Notes under the pieces: model-generated
What the model was told of the DNA's origin: nothing
The model's database searches: none
The model's input: only the letters and a program-made list of their open reading frames with translations
Shown here: positions 1,961 to 10,996 of the stretch, in pieces
Layout of the letters: every line of letters begins with the position of its first letter
How positions within the stretch are numbered: position 1 is the first letter of the stretch
Made by a program: the position numbers and the translations under genes
Assembly: GCF_004522105.1 (NCBI RefSeq)
Contig: NZ_SPUJ01000001.1
Span: 372,001-436,000 of the forward strand
DNA from: Nocardioides sp. 1609
GTDB taxonomy: Bacteria; Actinomycetota; Actinomycetes; Propionibacteriales; Nocardioidaceae
Length of the DNA: 64,000 nt
Reading direction: 5' to 3'

Positions 1961-3271
1961 ATGAACGACACGCCCTCCCGCCCCGAGCACCCGGGATTCG
2001 ACGACTACCGCGACGCCCCGCCCCCGCCGCCGCCGCCCTACCGCCCGGAGGCCGCGCCCAGCCCCTTCGGCACCCAGGCGCTCCCGGCGCAGGCGCCGGC
2101 CCACACCGGAGGCCATGCAGGACCCCCGGCGGCTCCGCCCGGACGGGGACGCAAGGGCTTCGCGGCCGCCGTCGTGGCGGCCGCCCTCGTCGTGGGCGGT
2201 GGCGCCGGGCTCGGTGGCGCGGCGGCGTACGACGCGATCGACGGCGACAGCGACGCCGGTGGCGGCAGCGCCTCGACGGTCGGCACCAGCCAGGTCGTCA
2301 GCACCCCGGACGAGCCGGCCGCCGAGGGCACCGTCGAGCAGGTGGCCGCCGCGGTGCTGCCGTCGGTGGTCAAGCTCGACGTCTCCGGGGCGAGCGAGTC
2401 CGGCTCGGGGTCGGGGATCATCCTCAGCTCCGACGGGCTGATCCTCACCAACGACCACGTCGCCTCGGTGGCCGGCGACGGCGGCAGCATCTCCGTGTCG
2501 TTCTCCGACGGCAGCCACGCCAGCGCCACGATCGTCGGCACCGACCCGCTGACCGACACCGCCCTCGTGCAGGCCGAGGACGTCGAGGGGCTCACCCCCG
2601 CGACCATCGGCGAGTCGGGCCAGGTCGACGTCGGCGAGCAGGTCGTCGCGATCGGCTCGCCGTACGGCCTCGACGCCACGGTCACCTCGGGCATCGTCAG
2701 CGCGCTCGACCGACCGGTCGACGTCGGCTCCGACGAGCAGGGCAACGCCACGGTCTACCCGGCGATCCAGACCGACGCCGCGATCAACCCCGGCAACAGC
2801 GGCGGGCCGCTGGTCGACCTGGAGGGTCACGTCATCGGCATCAACTCCTCGATCAAGTCGACGGCGTCCGCCGGCGGCGAGGCGGGCTCGATCGGCCTCG
2901 GCTTCGCGATCCCGATCGACGAGGTGCTCCCGGTCATCGACCAGATGAAGGCGGGCGAGACGCCCACCCACGCCCGGATCGGCGTGTCGGTGCAGGACGC
3001 CGGCGCGACGCCGGGATCGCAGCCCGGTGCCGCTGTCGTCGACGGCGCGCAGATCTCCCAGGTCAGCGACGACTCGGCCGCCGGCCAGGCCGGCCTGCAG
3101 GACGGCGACGTCATCACCAAGGTCGACGACACCCTCGTCACCGGCTCCGACTCGCTCATCGCGACCGTGCGGTCCTACCGCCCCGGCGACGACGTGACGA
3201 TCACCTACCTGCGCGGTGGCGAGGAGCAGACGGTCGACCTCACCCTCGACTCCGACGCCGGCACGTCCTGA
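1961..3271 (+). CDS. Membrane-anchored S1C serine protease, HtrA/DegP type with PDZ domain
   Basis: An envelope quality-control protease of 436 residues. Residues 1-65 are a proline-rich cytoplasmic tail (a run of eight prolines near 20). One membrane helix lies at about 66-90, then a Ser/Gly linker and a trypsin-like domain. The triad is visible: His166 in TNDHVAS, Asp199 in LTDTALV and Ser280 in PGNSGGPL. A PDZ domain occupies about 340-425 (QAGLQDGDVITKVDDT). The ATG at 1961 is preceded by GAGGA at 1946-1950. The open frame continues far upstream but is antisense to the ligase gene, so the earlier starts are rejected. The layout matches actinobacterial HtrA/PepD proteins. It stands alone, divergent from the acyl-CoA ligase gene. 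Confidence 0.93.
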   Translation: MNDTPSRPEHPGFDDYRDAPPPPPPPYRPEAAPSPFGTQALPAQAPAHTGGHAGPPAAPPGRGRKGFAAAVVAAALVVGGGAGLGGAAAYDAIDGDSDAGGGSASTVGTSQVVSTPDEPAAEGTVEQVAAAVLPSVVKLDVSGASESGSGSGIILSSDGLILTNDHVASVAGDGGSISVSFSDGSHASATIVGTDPLTDTALVQAEDVEGLTPATIGESGQVDVGEQVVAIGSPYGLDATVTSGIVSALDRPVDVGSDEQGNATVYPAIQTDAAINPGNSGGPLVDLEGHVIGINSSIKSTASAGGEAGSIGLGFAIPIDEVLPVIDQMKAGETPTHARIGVSVQDAGATPGSQPGAAVVDGAQISQVSDDSAAGQAGLQDGDVITKVDDTLVTGSDSLIATVRSYRPGDDVTITYLRGGEEQTVDLTLDSDAGTS

Positions 3272-3395: not shown

Positions 3396-4418
3396 TCAGG
3401 TCAGGCGCTTCTGGAACTCGCCCATGCGGGAGACGGGGTAGAAGCCCATCCGCCGGTTGACGCCGATCATGTGGTCGTTGACCTCGGCGTTCCAGGTGGA
3501 GACGCGGACGACGTCGGGCCGCTCGGCCTCCAGCAGGCGGTGGTTGGCGACCTTCACGGCCATGCCCAGCCGGTGGCCGCGGTGGTCGCGGTGCACGAGG
3601 GTGCCCCACTGGAAAGCGGTGGTGGTGCGGCCGTGGACGATCATCGAGTACGCGACCACGGTGCCGTCCGCGTCGAGGGCGACGGTGTGGAACGGCGTCC
3701 GGCCCTGCTTGGCGACGTTGGCCTCGACCTGGCGCAGCAGCGCGACGTCGACGTCGAGCGGCTCGACCTCGATGTCGCCGGTGGGCGCCTCGGTCGTCAG
3801 GGACGCGTCGAGGGCGAGCCAGCCCTCGGCGAGCTCGTCGGGGACGTCGCCGACCCACGACCGGATCTCGTAGCCGGCGTGGTGCTGCGCCGCCTCGGCG
3901 GCGAGCGCGTCGAGCAGGACGGCGTCGACCGGCACGTCGAGCCAGCGCTGCACGTCGCTCAGCCCGAGCGCGAAGCCCGCCGCCCGGGCGAAGGCGACGT
4001 CGCGGGACCCCGTGCCGTCGGTGCCGTGCTCGTAGCGCCAGGACACCTCGGCGTCGAGCAGCGACCGGCCGGCCGCGGCCGCGGTCGTCTCGAGGTGCTC
4101 GAGCATCGCGCGCCCGTGTCCCCGGCGCTGGTGGGTGGGTGCGACGGCGACCTCGACGAAGGCCTTGGTCAGGTTGTCGCGCTGCGGCAGCACCAGGGCC
4201 CCGGCGACGACGACCTCGCCCCCGGCTCGCCCCAGGTAGCCGATCCGCTCCTTGCCGTCGGACGGCTCCTGCCACTGCACGCGGGTCTCGTCGAGGTCGT
4301 AGACCTGGGCGGCGTCCGCGCCCACGGCGTCCTCGAGGGCGGCGGCGCGGACGGCGTGCCACGGCGCGAACGTCGCGTCGTCGAACGGGTCGAGCAGCGC
4401 GACCTCGAGCCCGCTCAC
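3396..4418 (-). CDS. Tandem GNAT-domain N-acetyltransferase
   Basis: A 340-residue protein with two GNAT-like halves. The first half has the acetyl-CoA pyrophosphate loop HQRRGHGRAML at about residues 95-105. The second has HRDHRGHRLGMAVK near 275-288, followed by TWNAEVNDHMIGVNRRMGFYPV, typical of actinobacterial double-GNAT proteins that acetylate a small molecule or an unknown amine. It starts with GTG at 4418, whose GTGA overlaps the stop codon of the ABC-F gene by 4 nt, so the two are translationally coupled. The substrate cannot be inferred. Confidence 0.85.
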   Translation of the reverse strand: MSGLEVALLDPFDDATFAPWHAVRAAALEDAVGADAAQVYDLDETRVQWQEPSDGKERIGYLGRAGGEVVVAGALVLPQRDNLTKAFVEVAVAPTHQRRGHGRAMLEHLETTAAAAGRSLLDAEVSWRYEHGTDGTGSRDVAFARAAGFALGLSDVQRWLDVPVDAVLLDALAAEAAQHHAGYEIRSWVGDVPDELAEGWLALDASLTTEAPTGDIEVEPLDVDVALLRQVEANVAKQGRTPFHTVALDADGTVVAYSMIVHGRTTTAFQWGTLVHRDHRGHRLGMAVKVANHRLLEAERPDVVRVSTWNAEVNDHMIGVNRRMGFYPVSRMGEFQKRLT

Positions 4419-6130
4419 CGGGCCCGCTCCACGCGGCCCTCGTCCCACACCGGGCCGTCGGACTCGTAGACCTCGCCGTCGGAGCCGTAGACCAGGAACC
4501 GGTCGAAGCCGCGCGCGAACCACCGGTCGTGGGTGACGGCGAGGACGGTGCCGTCGAAGGCGTCGAGGCCCTCCTCCAGTGCCTCGGCGGACTGGACGTC
4601 GAGGTTGTCGGTCGGCTCGTCGAGCAGCAGCAGGGTGGCCCCGGACAGCTCGAGCAGCAGGATCTGGAACCGGGCCTGCTGGCCGCCGCTGAGGGTCTCG
4701 AACCGCTGCTCGGCCTGGGCGCTGAGCTCGTAGCGGTCGAGCACCCGGCTGGCCTGCTCGCGGCCCATCCCGATCCGGCCGGCCATCCGGCCGTCGGCGT
4801 CGACGCGACCACCCTCGCCGCGGTGCAGGATCTCGACGAGGGTCCGTCCGACCAGCTCGGGGTGCTCGTGGGTCTGCACGAACCAGCCCGGGCGCACCCG
4901 GGCGCCGAGCTTGGCACTCCCGCGGTGCGGCACCGGCTTGATGTCGACGTCGCCGACCGGCTGGTGCTCGACGTCGGGGTCGCTGCCGCCGATCGCGAGC
5001 AGGCGCAGGAAGTGCGACTTGCCGGACCCGTTGGAGCCGAGGACGGCGACCCGCTCGCCGTACCAGACCTCGAGGTCGAAGGGCCGCATCAGGCCGGTGA
5101 GCTCGAGGTCGGTGCAGACGACGGCCCGCTTGCCGGTGCGGCCGCCCTTGAGCCGCATCGAGACCTGCTGCTCGCGCGGCTGCTCCATCGGCGGGCCGGC
5201 CTCCTCGAACTTGCGCAGCCGGGTCTGCGCCGCCTTGTACTGGCTCGCCATGCCGTCGTTGTACTCGGCCTTGATCTTCATGCGCAGCACCAGCGCCTTG
5301 AGCTTCGCGTGCTCCTCGTCCCACCGCTTGCGCATCTCCTCGAAGCGCGCGAAGCGGTCCTTGCGCGCCGCGTGGTAGCTCGCGAAGCCGCCGACGTGGG
5401 TCCACACCAGGTTCCCGGCGTGACCGAGCTCCACGGTGACGACGCGGGTCGCGGTGTTGTCGAGCAGCTCGCGGTCGTGGCTGATGAACAGGATGGTCTT
5501 GTCGGAGCTGCGGATCCTCGCCTCGAGCCAGACCTTGCCGGGGACGTCGAGGTAGTTGTCCGGCTCGTCGAGCAGGAGCACCTCGTCGGGCCCGGCCAGC
5601 AGGTACTCCAGCACCAGGCGCTTCTGCTCGCCGCCCGACAGGGTGCGCAGCTCGCGGTACTTCGCGCGGTCGTAGGGGACGCCGAGCGCCTTGGTCGTGC
5701 AGACGTCCCAGGTGACCTCGAGGTCGTAGCCGCCGGCGTCGGCGTACTCGTGGAGCGCCTCGGCGTAGCGCATCTGGGTCTTCTCGTCGTCGGTCTCCAT
5801 CAGCGCGAGCTCGCACCGGTCGACGTGCCCGGCGGCGGTCCGGATCCGCGGCGGGCTCACGCTCAGCAGCAGCTCGGCGACGGTCGGCTCGGCCGACAGC
5901 CCCTGCTTGACGTCCTGGCGCATGACGCCGAGGCCGCCGGTGCGGGTGACCGCGCCGGCGTGCGGCTGCAGGTCGCCGGTGATGATCTTGAGCAGGGTCG
6001 TCTTCCCGGCGCCGTTGGCCCCGACCAGCGCGACCTTGGCACCCTCGCCCACCCGGAACGAGACGTCCTCGAGCAGCACCCGCCCGTCGGGCAGCTCGAA
6101 CCGGACTCCACTGACGTCGACGTGTCCCAC
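4415..6130 (-). CDS. ABC-F family ATP-binding protein (no membrane domain)
   Basis: 571 residues with two ABC ATPase domains and no transmembrane segment, as in ABC-F translation factors that act at the ribosomal E-site. Walker A motifs are GANGAGKTT (about residue 37) and GSNGSGKSH (about 350). Signature motifs are LSGGEQKRL and LSGGQQARF. Walker B regions read LLLDEPDNYLD and LLLDEPTDNLD, so the first carries D-N-Y where T-N-H is usual. The linker between the cassettes is charged (about residues 235-300). GTG at 6130 gives MGHVDVSG directly before the first strand; no Shine-Dalgarno is visible. An in-frame extension upstream lacks homology-like content. Coupled to the downstream GNAT gene. 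Confidence 0.88.
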   Translation of the reverse strand: MGHVDVSGVRFELPDGRVLLEDVSFRVGEGAKVALVGANGAGKTTLLKIITGDLQPHAGAVTRTGGLGVMRQDVKQGLSAEPTVAELLLSVSPPRIRTAAGHVDRCELALMETDDEKTQMRYAEALHEYADAGGYDLEVTWDVCTTKALGVPYDRAKYRELRTLSGGEQKRLVLEYLLAGPDEVLLLDEPDNYLDVPGKVWLEARIRSSDKTILFISHDRELLDNTATRVVTVELGHAGNLVWTHVGGFASYHAARKDRFARFEEMRKRWDEEHAKLKALVLRMKIKAEYNDGMASQYKAAQTRLRKFEEAGPPMEQPREQQVSMRLKGGRTGKRAVVCTDLELTGLMRPFDLEVWYGERVAVLGSNGSGKSHFLRLLAIGGSDPDVEHQPVGDVDIKPVPHRGSAKLGARVRPGWFVQTHEHPELVGRTLVEILHRGEGGRVDADGRMAGRIGMGREQASRVLDRYELSAQAEQRFETLSGGQQARFQILLLELSGATLLLLDEPTDNLDVQSAEALEEGLDAFDGTVLAVTHDRWFARGFDRFLVYGSDGEVYESDGPVWDEGRVERAR

Positions 6131-6185: not shown

Positions 6186-7511
6186 TCAGGCGGGACGCAG
6201 GCTGGCGGCCACCAGGTCGGCCAGCGCCTGGGTCGGCGCCCGGACCTCGTAGGCGTCACCGCCGCAGGCCGTGGCCAGCCACCCGTCGCCGTCGCGCGTC
6301 GCGGCCGTCCGCGCCCCGGCTTCCTGCCCGTCGTCGCAGTCGTCGGCGACGGAGTCGACCCGGACGTCAGCGCGCTGCGGCTGCTCGACGTGGTCGTTGG
6401 GGCTCCCGACCTCGGTCGCCGCCCACCCGAGCGGCGAGCCGGGGAACGGGTCGTCGGTCGCGCGAACCGATCCGAGCACTTGCTGGGCCACCTCGTGCGG
6501 CAGTCCGACGGCGCTGACGACGACGTCGCCGGAGCGGACGAGACCCTCGCCGCCGTCGAGGCCGGCGGGTGTGCTCGCGTCGACCGAGTCGCCGGAGCGG
6601 ACCTCGATCCCGGGTCCGTCGCAGCCGCGCGTGCCAGACGCACCGAACCGGACCGCACCGTCGCCGCAGCCGCCGGCGACCCGCGCCCAGGCCGGGGGAA
6701 GGTCGACCACCACGCCGGGGGCGGCCTCGACCGTCGACCACGCAGTGGTCACCTTCCGCGCCGACCCGGCGACGAGCTCGGCGAGCGCCCGGGTGGGAGC
6801 CACCGCCACGACGTTCGAGCGGCCTACCGTGGCGACGGCGTGCCACCGACCCGGCCCGGCCTGCTCCCCCTCGGCGGAGCGGCGCGGCCCGGACCGGTCC
6901 TTCACGTCGACGTGGAGGCCCTCGGGCACGGTGGTCGGCACGGGGTAGGAGATCGCGTCGACCTCGACGTCGGTCCACGCCCCGGTGAGGTCGGGGATCT
7001 CGTCGCCCGCGAGCCGGGCCGAGCCGAGCACCCGGAGCGCCAGGTCGCGGTCGTCGCTGCTCACGCTCACGTCGATCCCGCCGACGGAGACGTGCCCGAT
7101 CCAGTCGGACTCGATCGGGGTGTCGTAGTCCTCGGCGGGCCTCAGCCCCGAACCGAAGTGGTAGTCGGAGACCAGGTTGCCGTACACCGCGACGACCTCG
7201 TTCTCGCCGCAGTCGTCCGGGTCCGCCCCGTAGGAGTAGTAGCCGCAGACCGAGTCCGGGTCGGCGTCGATCGGCGCCCACTCCCCCGGCACGTCGACGA
7301 GCACCCGCACCGTCTCGTCCCGCCGGTTGCCGGGCAGCTCCGCCTCGAGCGTCTGCCAGCCGTCGGTGGCCGCCCCGACGACGCGGACGACGGGGTCGTC
7401 CGCCGCCTCGCCCGGCCCCGATGGTCCGAGCCGGACCGCGACGACCACCGCCGCGACGGCGACGAGGGCCACCACGCCTGCGACCCACCATCGCGTGTGT
7501 CGCTTGGTCAT
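6186..7511 (-). CDS. Membrane-anchored protein with four copies of an unrecognised repeat module
   Basis: 441 residues of unknown function. One N-terminal membrane helix (about residues 8-27) with a basic cytoplasmic tip is followed by an extracytoplasmic region. I read four repeats at about 52-166, 179-253, 258-350 and 363-439. Each opens with W-x-[TA]-x-E, has a centre of the type V-x-V-D-[VL]-P-x-x-W followed by Cys, and closes with V-x-A-P-T-x-x-L-A-x-[LV]-V-x-x-S-x-R or a decayed form of it. The same module occurs in the next gene upstream. Start ATG 7511 follows GGGAGAG. It is probably the last gene of the sigma-factor operon, 70 nt after its neighbour. I do not recognise a family. Confidence 0.8.
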   Translation of the reverse strand: MTKRHTRWWVAGVVALVAVAAVVVAVRLGPSGPGEAADDPVVRVVGAATDGWQTLEAELPGNRRDETVRVLVDVPGEWAPIDADPDSVCGYYSYGADPDDCGENEVVAVYGNLVSDYHFGSGLRPAEDYDTPIESDWIGHVSVGGIDVSVSSDDRDLALRVLGSARLAGDEIPDLTGAWTDVEVDAISYPVPTTVPEGLHVDVKDRSGPRRSAEGEQAGPGRWHAVATVGRSNVVAVAPTRALAELVAGSARKVTTAWSTVEAAPGVVVDLPPAWARVAGGCGDGAVRFGASGTRGCDGPGIEVRSGDSVDASTPAGLDGGEGLVRSGDVVVSAVGLPHEVAQQVLGSVRATDDPFPGSPLGWAATEVGSPNDHVEQPQRADVRVDSVADDCDDGQEAGARTAATRDGDGWLATACGGDAYEVRAPTQALADLVAASLRPA

Positions 7512-7581
7512 GGCTCTCCCGGACGTCGGTCGTCAGTGTCACCCCCGTCCTGGTCGGCTGGCAACCGGCAACCCTCCCGCC

Positions 7582-9318
7582 TCAGGTGGGGGTGGCCGAG
7601 TCGAGCACCCGCCGCGCGGTCGCCTCGTCGACTTCCCTGACGACGATCACCGCATCACCGACGACCTGGTAGCCGCAATAGGCGCCCTCACACTCCTGCA
7701 CGCCGGGGTCGAACGCCGGGTCGAAGGTGGCGGCGGCGTAGCGAAAGACACCGGGCGTGGCTCGGCAATCGTCGGCGCCGTCCGCGGGACCCCACAGCGG
7801 CGCGTCTGCCCCGAGCCCGCCGCACGCAGGAGGCGTCGTCCAGTCGCTGGGCAGCTCGACGAGGACGTCGCGGACGACCGCGACCTGCCATGCCCCCGCG
7901 GGCAGGTCGGACCGTCGGATCGAGCCGACGACGAGGTTGGCGAGCACCTCGGTCGGCGCCGTGACCGTGACCAGCCGGTCCGCGCACGACCCGGCCTGCC
8001 ACCGGCCGTCCGCGGTGGGTTCGGCCGCCGACCCCCGCGGGTCGCAGCGCGCAATGCCCGGCCGTACGGCGACGTCGACGCCGGCCCCCACGGGTACGTC
8101 GACGACGAACGTCGCGTCGAGGTGGACGGTCCGCCACTCGGCCACGGCTGGCGTCGGCTCCCCCACCGGTCGCGCCGACGCGGCGATGCGGCGCGTCGTC
8201 CCGAAGTCGACGGTTTGCACGCCGACAAGCCGGTCGCCGACGACGACGTCGGCGCTCGCTCCGAAGAGCCCGTCCGAACCATCGGCGGCACCCTCGGAGG
8301 TGACCGACACCAACGTGTCGCACGTCCTGTCGCGCCCCTTGGCTCGTGGCCCCCGTGCCACCGCGTCCGGTCCACACCCCGCTGTCTCGGTGGTCCAGTT
8401 GGCGGGTACGTCGACCGCGACGCCGGCGTGCTCGACGGTCTGCCACGGCTCCTCGACCCGGTCCTCGACCACCGGCAGCGGCGTCTGCGGCCAGGTGCCG
8501 CCGTCGACGATCTCCCGGTCGCCGAGGGGCTCGTCGAGGTCGAGCGTGACCGGGACGCTCGGGTTGTCCACGCAGGTGTAGTTGCCGTCGCCGTGGGAGG
8601 TGATCGTCACGACGACCCGGTCGTCGGTCTCGACGACCACCGGGTCCGACAGGTACGGCCGCGGGTCGCGCCCACTGGCGCACTCTCGTTCGGTGGCCAG
8701 CACCACCGGCCGGTCGGTGGTGGGGTCGACGCCCGCACCCGGTGCCGACAGCTCCACCTGCCACCGCCCCGGCGGCCGCACCACCGACAGCTGACAGCCG
8801 CCCAGGCCCGCGTAGTCGAGCGTGCCGTCGTCGGCACGGTCGAACTCCACCGTCTCCGCGCGACGCGCGGGCCCGGCCGCCGACGACCAGGTGCCGGTCC
8901 CGATCGTGACGCCGTCGTCGTCGGCGGCGAGGACGATCCACCGCGACACGTCCGGGCTGTCGATCCCGAGCTGCGCGGGCAGCGCCTCGACCGCCGCCCG
9001 GACCTCGACGTCGGCGGCGACCTCGGTCAGGCCGCCGTCCATCGCCGAGACCGGCCAGGACGCACCCCCGCAGGTCACCAGGGTCTCCGCCGTCCGGTCC
9101 GCGGGCGGCTCGTCGGGCGAGGGGTCGTCGTCGAGCGACGCCACGACGGCCACCGGCACCAGGACGGCGACCACGGCCGCCGCCGCGCCGACGGCCACCC
9201 GGCGGCGACGCCGCCCGCCGGCCCGGGTGCGGGCCGCTGCCGCCAGGCCGCCGGCGTCCGGCGCGTCCTCGGCGCCCTCGGCGAGGGCGTCGGACAGCCG
9301 GTCCTCGAAGTCACTCAT
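7582..9318 (-). CDS. Anti-sigma-like membrane protein carrying three copies of the same module
   Basis: 578 residues. The cytoplasmic N-terminus (MSDFEDRLSDALAEGAEDAP) resembles the short region that precedes the membrane helix in proteins cotranscribed with SigE-family sigma factors. A membrane helix is at about 41-61. The extracytoplasmic part ends in three modules at about 292-383, 395-469 and 477-577, related to those of the downstream gene (for example VAVDVPANWTT...CG and VLVELPSDWTT...CG). It overlaps the sigma gene by 8 nt, has an SD GAGGAGAGGG, and is therefore a good candidate for the sigma regulator or its sensor partner. No zinc-type HxxxCxxC anti-sigma motif is visible. Confidence 0.75.
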   Translation of the reverse strand: MSDFEDRLSDALAEGAEDAPDAGGLAAAARTRAGGRRRRRVAVGAAAAVVAVLVPVAVVASLDDDPSPDEPPADRTAETLVTCGGASWPVSAMDGGLTEVAADVEVRAAVEALPAQLGIDSPDVSRWIVLAADDDGVTIGTGTWSSAAGPARRAETVEFDRADDGTLDYAGLGGCQLSVVRPPGRWQVELSAPGAGVDPTTDRPVVLATERECASGRDPRPYLSDPVVVETDDRVVVTITSHGDGNYTCVDNPSVPVTLDLDEPLGDREIVDGGTWPQTPLPVVEDRVEEPWQTVEHAGVAVDVPANWTTETAGCGPDAVARGPRAKGRDRTCDTLVSVTSEGAADGSDGLFGASADVVVGDRLVGVQTVDFGTTRRIAASARPVGEPTPAVAEWRTVHLDATFVVDVPVGAGVDVAVRPGIARCDPRGSAAEPTADGRWQAGSCADRLVTVTAPTEVLANLVVGSIRRSDLPAGAWQVAVVRDVLVELPSDWTTPPACGGLGADAPLWGPADGADDCRATPGVFRYAAATFDPAFDPGVQECEGAYCGYQVVGDAVIVVREVDEATARRVLDSATPT

Positions 9319-9862
9319 GGTCCCTCTCCTCCTCGGGCGCCGGACCCAGCTCCACGCGCAGGACGGCGAGACCGCGGGACACCCGCGACCGGACCGACCC
9401 CTCGCGCACGCCGGTGAGCGCGGCGATCTCGGCGTACTCGAGCTGTTCGTAGTAGCGCAGGACGACAGCGGTGCGTTGGTCCTCCGGCAGGGCGCGGCAC
9501 GCGAGCCAGATCCGGCGCCGCTCGTCGTGCTCGACGCCGGGGTCGTCGATGACCGCCCGGTCGGCGACCTCCGCGACCCGCTCCACCGGCGAGACCCGCC
9601 GCCGCCAGGCCCGCCAGCGCGAGGTGTGGGCGTTGACGACCATCCGGCGCACGTAGGCGTCGACGTCCTCGACCCGGCGGATCCGCTCCCAGCGCGGGAG
9701 CGCCCGCGACAGCGCCTCCTGGACGACGTCCTCCGCGTCGGCCGCGTCGCCGGTCAGCGTGTAGGCCAGCCGGAGCAGCGCCGGCCCGCGCGCGGCGACC
9801 CACGCGTCGAAGTCCGGCACCACCACTGCCGCCTCCTCGCGCACCCTGTCGACCGTCGTCAC
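9311..9862 (-). CDS. SigE-family (ECF) RNA polymerase sigma factor
   Basis: 183 residues. Region 2 is at about 20-90 (LLRLAYTLTGDAADAEDVVQEALSRA), region 4 at about 115-170 (ALPEDQRTAVVLRYYEQLEYAEIAALTG, then REGSVRSRVSRGLAVLR). The short spacing, the Y-E-Q-L-x-Y-x-E-I-A element and the lack of region 1.1 fit the SigE-like actinobacterial family. It heads an operon with the two repeat-module membrane proteins, so it probably responds to a signal sensed by them. GTG at 9862 gives MTTVDRVREE; no clear SD. A 10-bp inverted repeat lies 73-102 nt upstream. Confidence 0.92.
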   Translation of the reverse strand: MTTVDRVREEAAVVVPDFDAWVAARGPALLRLAYTLTGDAADAEDVVQEALSRALPRWERIRRVEDVDAYVRRMVVNAHTSRWRAWRRRVSPVERVAEVADRAVIDDPGVEHDERRRIWLACRALPEDQRTAVVLRYYEQLEYAEIAALTGVREGSVRSRVSRGLAVLRVELGPAPEEERDHE

Positions 9863-9934
9863 GCATCTTCAACGCTCGGGGCCCGGTTCGTGTTGCGACG
9901 CTCGTAGCCGGACGGACACGTCTGCGGTCGCGGG

Positions 9935-10045: not shown

Positions 10046-10996
10046 GTGAGCGAGATGCCCTGGACCGACCCCGCCTGGCTGGCGACGGCGCACGGGTGGA
10101 TCGACGAGCAGGTGACCGACCTGGGGTTGCGCCGCACCGACGCGGTCGAGCAGCCGCACGTGCGCCCGTGGGGCACCGTGCTGCGGGTGCCGACCGACGG
10201 CGGCACGCTGTGGTTCAAGGCCACCGAGCCCGCGCTCCGGCACGAGGCGGCGGTGCACTCGATCGTCGCGGCGCGCTCTCCGGAGCGGGTGCCGCCCCTG
10301 CTCGCCGCCGACCTCGACCGCGGCTGGCTGCTCGCCGCGGACGCCGGGCGCCGGCTGCGCGAGGTCGTCGAGGAGGAGCGCAGCCTGGCCCGCTGGCACG
10401 ACGCGCTCGACGGCTACGCCCGGGTGCAGCTCGCCTCCCGGGCCGACGTGCCCGCGCTGCTCGCCACCGGGATGCCGCACCTGCGGCTCGCCGACCTCGC
10501 CGCGGGGTACGCCGACCTGGTCGGCCGGCTCGGGGACGACGTGGTCGAGCCCCGCCTGCGCGACGCCGCGGACCGGGTCGGGCCGATGGCCGACCGGCTG
10601 GCGTCGTACGGGATCGAGGAGACCGTCCAGCACGACGACCTCCACGACGGCCAGGTCTTCGTCACCCCGGACGACGCGCCGGGTGGTCGGCACCGGGTGC
10701 TCGACTGGGGTGACGCCTGCGTCTCGCACCCCTTCCTCACCCTCGCCGTCACCCTGCTCGGCGTGATCGCGTGGGGCGTCGACGACGTGGCCGGCTCCGA
10801 GGACGTCGCGCCCTACCGCGACACCTACCTGGCGCCGTTCGCCGAGGCCTGCGGGACCTCGGTGGCCGTCCTCGCCGACGCCGCCGACCTCGGCGCCCGG
10901 CTGGGCTGGGCGTGCCGCGCGGTCCACGGTCACGTCGACGACGACCCCGCCAGCACGGTGACCCGACTGAGGATGTTCGTCGACGGCCGGCCCTGA
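10046..10996 (+). CDS. Aminoglycoside-phosphotransferase-like (APH) family protein
   Basis: 316 residues from GTG 10046; an in-frame ATG lies three codons further at 10055 and is equally possible. The kinase-like fold is shown by VQHDDLHDGQVF (catalytic loop, about residues 194-205; HDD replaces the usual HGD) and VLDWGDACVSHPF (metal-binding loop, about 222-234). The N-terminal half has the expected FKATEPALRHEAAVH, where the Lys and Glu of the ATP-binding pair can be read. Such proteins phosphorylate small molecules; an aminoglycoside substrate is not implied. It is divergent from the sigma operon. Confidence 0.85.
   Translation: MSEMPWTDPAWLATAHGWIDEQVTDLGLRRTDAVEQPHVRPWGTVLRVPTDGGTLWFKATEPALRHEAAVHSIVAARSPERVPPLLAADLDRGWLLAADAGRRLREVVEEERSLARWHDALDGYARVQLASRADVPALLATGMPHLRLADLAAGYADLVGRLGDDVVEPRLRDAADRVGPMADRLASYGIEETVQHDDLHDGQVFVTPDDAPGGRHRVLDWGDACVSHPFLTLAVTLLGVIAWGVDDVAGSEDVAPYRDTYLAPFAEACGTSVAVLADAADLGARLGWACRAVHGHVDDDPASTVTRLRMFVDGRP

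Follow-up and report, generated by a model that had tools for sequence, protein, structure and literature searches.

The SigE-family ECF sigma gene of Nocardioides sp. 1609 described here and the two membrane-protein genes behind it probably form an autoregulated unit, in which protein B would be a membrane anti-sigma-like sensor with a modular ectodomain and protein A a paralogous accessory. ECF sigma factors are one of the main bacterial routes coupling envelope signals to transcription. To our knowledge, both the sigma-binding and the sensor domains of many actinobacterial SigE-family pairs are undescribed. The general type of system, a sigma factor with a membrane partner, is already known; what is new is a lineage-restricted sensor domain, the strict alternation of two module types and the promoter evidence for autoregulation. 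Coordinates refer to the window, the 64,000-nt stretch of contig NZ_SPUJ01000001.1 that was analysed, and are collected in Table 1.

Table 1. Features of the sigma operon and related promoter sites. Residue numbers are those of the protein named.
Feature	Coordinates	Strand	Evidence
Putative autoregulatory ECF promoter, CGCAACA-N16-CGTTG	9870..9897	-	directly upstream of sigma start codon; conserved motif
SigE-family ECF sigma factor, 183 aa	9311..9862	-	TIGR02983 E 7.4e-46; Sigma70_r2 + r4_2
8-nt overlap ATGAGTGA, sigma stop / B start	9311..9318	-	sequence; also in most loci compared
Protein B, 578 aa, anti-sigma-like membrane sensor (inferred role)	7582..9318	-	
B N-terminus, 1-62: Arg-rich cytosolic segment of about 40 residues + TM helix (about 41-62)	9133..9318	-	alignment, hydropathy
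ND, separate non-repeat extracytoplasmic domain, B 73-290	8449..9102	-	homologues elsewhere
Alpha module B1, 291-388	8155..8448	-	shuffle tests; AlphaFold2; relatives-only HMM
Beta module B2, 391-476	7891..8148	-	shuffle tests; AlphaFold2; relatives-only HMM
Alpha module B3, 477-578	7585..7890	-	shuffle tests; AlphaFold2; single-module fold; relatives-only HMM
Protein A, 441 aa, TM helix + alpha-beta-alpha-beta, without cytosolic N-terminus	6186..7511	-	
TM helix of A, about 8-28	7428..7490	-	hydropathy
Alpha module A1, 50-170	7002..7364	-	shuffle tests; relatives-only HMM
Beta module A2, 177-256	6744..6983	-	shuffle tests; relatives-only HMM
Alpha module A3, 257-358	6438..6743	-	shuffle tests; relatives-only HMM
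Beta module A4, 361-441	6189..6431	-	shuffle tests; relatives-only HMM
GGAACC-N16-CGTC sites, own genome (G000): loci L188, L201, L202, L203, L207, L208, L212, L185, L194			
GGAACC-N16-CGTC sites, relative G118: loci L159, L161, L163, L173, L174, L175, L164			

On the minus strand the sigma gene is followed by B, A and an ABC-F-like ATPase gene (about 4415-6130). The sigma factor scores 156 bits against TIGR02983 (SigE family), a profile whose curated cut-off is 141.55 bits. The original prediction had given the correct coordinates and strand for both membrane proteins; its single N-terminal membrane helix per protein agrees with the one N-terminal hydrophobic helix found in A and in B, and its 8-nt overlap between sigma and B was confirmed. 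With the sensor start taken at the conserved Met, an 8-nt overlap with the end of the sigma gene recurs in most of the 29 loci compared; B and A are separated by a 70-nt gap. Many of these loci occupy a conserved chromosomal place, in the order acyl-CoA dehydrogenases, sigma, sensor, (A), ABC-F, acetyltransferase and HtrA-like protease. Given that this is one orthologous place, the loci are only partly independent observations. In the window the HtrA-like protease gene (Trypsin_2 + PDZ; 1973-3271, plus strand) lies within this conserved neighbourhood and may be there by chance. The divergent neighbour of the operon (10046-10996, plus strand) carries the kinase-like motifs HDDLHDGQ and DWGDA, has no Pfam match and has homologues in L097 and L106.

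A and B together contain seven copies of one domain, which fall into two subtypes, alpha (about 100 aa, with two Cys) and beta (about 80 aa). In pairwise shuffle tests of the seven units, z reached 11.7 for alpha-alpha and 12 for beta-beta pairs, with alpha-beta pairs mostly at background level. Profile HMMs built from other species, with no window sequences, recovered 4/4 alpha copies (iE 6e-7 to 2e-22) and 3/3 beta copies (iE 8.5e-5 to 5e-11) from targets mixed among 998 shuffled sequences. The alpha and beta profiles nevertheless align with each other (hhalign probability 88, E 3.3e-6), so the two are probably members of one superfamily. The four repeats of A and three of B that had been drawn by eye are thus borne out by self-alignment. 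What had been taken for a single seven-copy module, however, is a strict alternation of two subtypes, and the V-x-V-D-[VL]-P-x-x-W...Cys centre ascribed to all units is a feature of alpha. AlphaFold2 modelling of B 291-578, with a 13-row alignment as input, predicted a row of three domains, in each of which the strands follow one common order and a helix closes the fold (mean pLDDT 83.2, pTM 0.75), one repeated fold as originally anticipated; a single alpha module was modelled at pLDDT 91.9 and pTM 0.85. This repeated-fold prediction covers B, and the modules of A are assigned by sequence. Among 42 module proteins, alpha always comes first and alternation follows, with 29 alpha-beta junctions, 16 beta-alpha, one alpha-alpha and no beta-beta, in arrays of one to six modules. 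At least two Cys are present in 58/59 alpha modules, and the domain is probably disulfide-bonded.

Profile searches found alpha in at least 47 of 216 genomes of the genus (E up to 0.001) and in at least 40 of 342 genomes of the family at E 1e-5, one of them outside the genus; these counts are lower bounds, since the search scores only a share of candidates. None was found in the other genera of the class (137 genera sampled) by a search that scored part of the candidates. The alpha/beta family therefore appears almost confined to Nocardioides and its close relatives. A 16-sequence alignment proved too divergent for use in a collection scan. Forty neighbourhoods were collected by alpha match alone, some with weak scores, and not by sigma. 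All multi-module proteins lie in SigE-family sigma loci (24/24, A and B included), and in 28 loci besides that of the window the modules immediately follow a SigE-family sigma gene, the very association that had been proposed as a check. The 12 stand-alone single-alpha proteins lie outside sigma loci; some are lipoproteins and some have a TM helix. At locus L097 of the closest relative, G118, the B orthologue is 64% identical and no A lies between B and ABC-F, which indicates that A is dispensable. The N-terminus of that orthologue is in a different frame (L097:3253-3924 and L097:3693-5441), through a frameshift or a sequencing error. At L094, a module-free N-terminus/TM protein is followed by a single-alpha membrane protein in the position of A, and A itself shares about 41% identity with the alpha-beta-alpha-beta portion of the longer sensors found at L098 and L101.

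B consists of a short cytosolic N-terminus, a TM helix, the non-repeat domain ND and an alpha-beta-alpha array. An alignment of 14 sequences shows conservation of the Arg-rich segment, about 40 residues long, that precedes the TM helix. ND also occurs in repeat-free proteins (L003-L007) and in the sigma-linked proteins of L075, L097 and L107, which indicates that sensor parts have been shuffled; it also occurs at L020. In the genome, 19 SigE-family sigma genes pass the curated cut-off (loci L124-L150). Most of them are followed by a gene for a protein whose cytosolic N-terminus is short and often rich in Arg, with a single TM helix and differing outer parts, and the genome is predicted to contain a large set of sigma/sensor pairs without a zinc anti-sigma motif. 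A zinc anti-sigma-type motif is present in the proteins behind the sigma genes of L147 and L149. For B, class I zinc anti-sigma features (HxxxCxxC / zf-HC2) gave no Pfam match, and residues 1-40 contain no Cys. B has instead the layout of class II/III anti-sigma factors of the CnrY and RsbN type, a short cytosolic segment and a TM helix encoded together with the sigma factor. Members of these classes differ strongly in sequence, and a PDB profile search of the cytosolic stretch of B against solved anti-sigma factors gave no match.

Just upstream of the sigma start, the motif [CT]GCAAC, a 16-18 nt spacer and CGT[TC] is found at 28/29 loci, mostly as CGCAACA (shuffle rate 0.0003). The form in the window, CGCAAC-N17-CGTTGA, is similar to the consensus of Streptomyces sigma-BldN, CGTAAC-N16-CGTTGA (PMC2375139), and its conservation in 28/29 loci is read as implying autoregulation of sigma. 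Given that the extended window form is the sole exact site in the 4.83 Mb genome, the immediate target of sigma is probably its own operon. A wider regulon in this genome was rejected, as only the sigma promoter matched without mismatch and the remaining sites were at control level. Both the promoter motif and the 8-nt overlap speak for a single regulatory unit of sigma and B. This extends the original reading of a sigma-linked sensor built from repeated domains, which the linkage supports; anti-sigma activity and sensing are inferred. The conserved Arg-rich N-terminus, the overlap, the autoregulatory motif and the genome-wide layout make an anti-sigma role the most likely one for B.

We propose the following model. 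B, translationally coupled to sigma, would hold the sigma factor by its short cytosolic N-terminus in an anti-sigma-like manner, though without a zinc fold, and the outer part of B, ND plus alpha-beta-alpha, would receive the signal or bind a partner, in an ectodomain that would grow by the addition of alternating alpha and beta units. An envelope signal would lead to B being altered or proteolysed, possibly by the neighbouring HtrA-like protease, and the freed sigma would then use the CGCAACA-N16-CGTTG promoter to transcribe the operon that encodes it. Since A is anchored in the membrane and lacks the sigma-binding part, this paralogue could act only outside the cell or in the membrane. It might modulate B in the way that RseB does RseA in E. 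coli, a role guessed from the gene order and the domains that A and B have in common.

Known systems offer partial parallels. The Streptomyces pair sigma-BldN/RsbN likewise joins an ECF sigma to a membrane-anchored partner, and inhibition of BldN by RsbN is established (PMC8103513); B differs in its large modular ectodomain and in a cytosolic stretch without a sequence match in the PDB search. The rpoE-rseA-rseB/DegS system of E. coli shares the order of sigma, membrane protein with cytosolic N-terminus and extracytoplasmic accessory, and an HtrA-like protease lies in the neighbourhood of the present locus; RseB is also among the weak Foldseek leads for one module. Here, in contrast, A is homologous to the ectodomain of B itself and membrane-anchored, the host is monoderm, and RseA and RseB have no sequence similarity to the locus proteins. 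The sigma of S. coelicolor sigE-cseA likewise belongs to the SigE family, but there a two-component system, and no anti-sigma partner, exerts the control, and the sigma gene lacks autoregulation (PMC6767563).

The stand-alone alpha genes carry a different promoter. In 10/12 of them GGAACC or GCAACC, N15-17 and CGTC ends 6-17 nt before the start, a count that is not an independent test because the motif was first noticed in the same sequences and some start codons were picked by eye; beyond those, only four such sites occur in the 110 kb examined on both strands. Their use of the sigma-operon promoter was dropped for most, the -35 being GGAACC and not CGCAAC. These promoters (GGAACC-N16-CGTC) resemble examples of the Streptomyces sigma-E motif and look like those of sigma-E targets, which include lipoproteins (PMC6767563), and the resemblance suggests that the alpha/beta family is tied to envelope-type ECF regulation. 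Where an exact GGAACC-N16-CGTC copy has a start codon 8-10 nt on, the gene mostly encodes a lipoprotein or a secreted protein. These genes would form a nearly leaderless, ECF-controlled lipoprotein regulon, which includes the stand-alone alpha gene of G118.

Since the stand-alone alpha genes resemble ECF-type outputs, some modules might be made as products of the regulon instead of serving as sensors. On that reading A and B would both be envelope proteins made by the sigma regulon, B sitting in the operon as a target and not an inhibitor, with modules that bind wall or lipid components. The promoter motif beside 10/12 stand-alone alpha starts, the lipoprotein genes behind most start-proximal exact copies and the lack of any cytosolic part in A all fit; we still consider it unlikely, because the conserved cytosolic N-terminus of B, the conserved overlap and the genome-wide sigma-then-TM layout have the look of a sigma/anti-sigma pair. 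It is more improbable again that B is a positive factor, recruiting or activating sigma at the membrane so that losing B would lower sigma activity. The cytosolic stretch has no detectable similarity to known anti-sigma domains, and RskA, described as a dual activator-inhibitor (PMC7509140), offers a precedent; partners co-transcribed with ECF sigma factors are, however, inhibitors as a rule (PMC8103513).

A further alternative bears on where the domain came from and could hold alongside the sigma/anti-sigma explanation. Pfam, NCBIfam, PHROGs and PDB sequence-profile searches of A, B and the modules gave no significant match, nor did Pfam give a noteworthy one for 20 alpha and 13 beta members. 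Assignment to a known domain of these libraries was therefore dropped, in line with the claim of an unrecognised module. The module might still be a shortened PsbP-like or RseB/MucB-like fold, which would make the ectodomain a diverged branch of sensors already known, since Foldseek ranks RseB/MucB for one module (probability up to 0.82, E at least 0.4, about 55 residues aligned) and PsbP for three (E 0.017 at best; weaker for one module). We regard this as rather doubtful, as nothing in the PDB had E below 0.001 and the leading single-module matches have low TM-scores (0.36-0.43). The two resemblances are treated as leads only. Membership in the RseB family by sequence profile was rejected, as PF17188 (MucB_RseB_C) detected nothing in the genome even with E allowed up to 10. 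A phage or plasmid origin of B was also set aside, tblastn of B giving no match.

Under the sigma/anti-sigma explanation, signal, stoichiometry and accessory role become testable at this locus: the sensor domain is well defined and has clear boundaries, arrays range naturally from one to six modules, the promoter provides an internal readout, and A is a paralogue that lacks the sigma-binding part. A more speculative thought, to which we give little credence, is that alpha and beta form a self-contained signalling vocabulary, with stand-alone alpha proteins, as envelope-stress products, binding the homologous alpha/beta arrays of the sensors and co-encoded A proteins acting as homotypic decoys. 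If so, regulator and output would talk via one shared domain.
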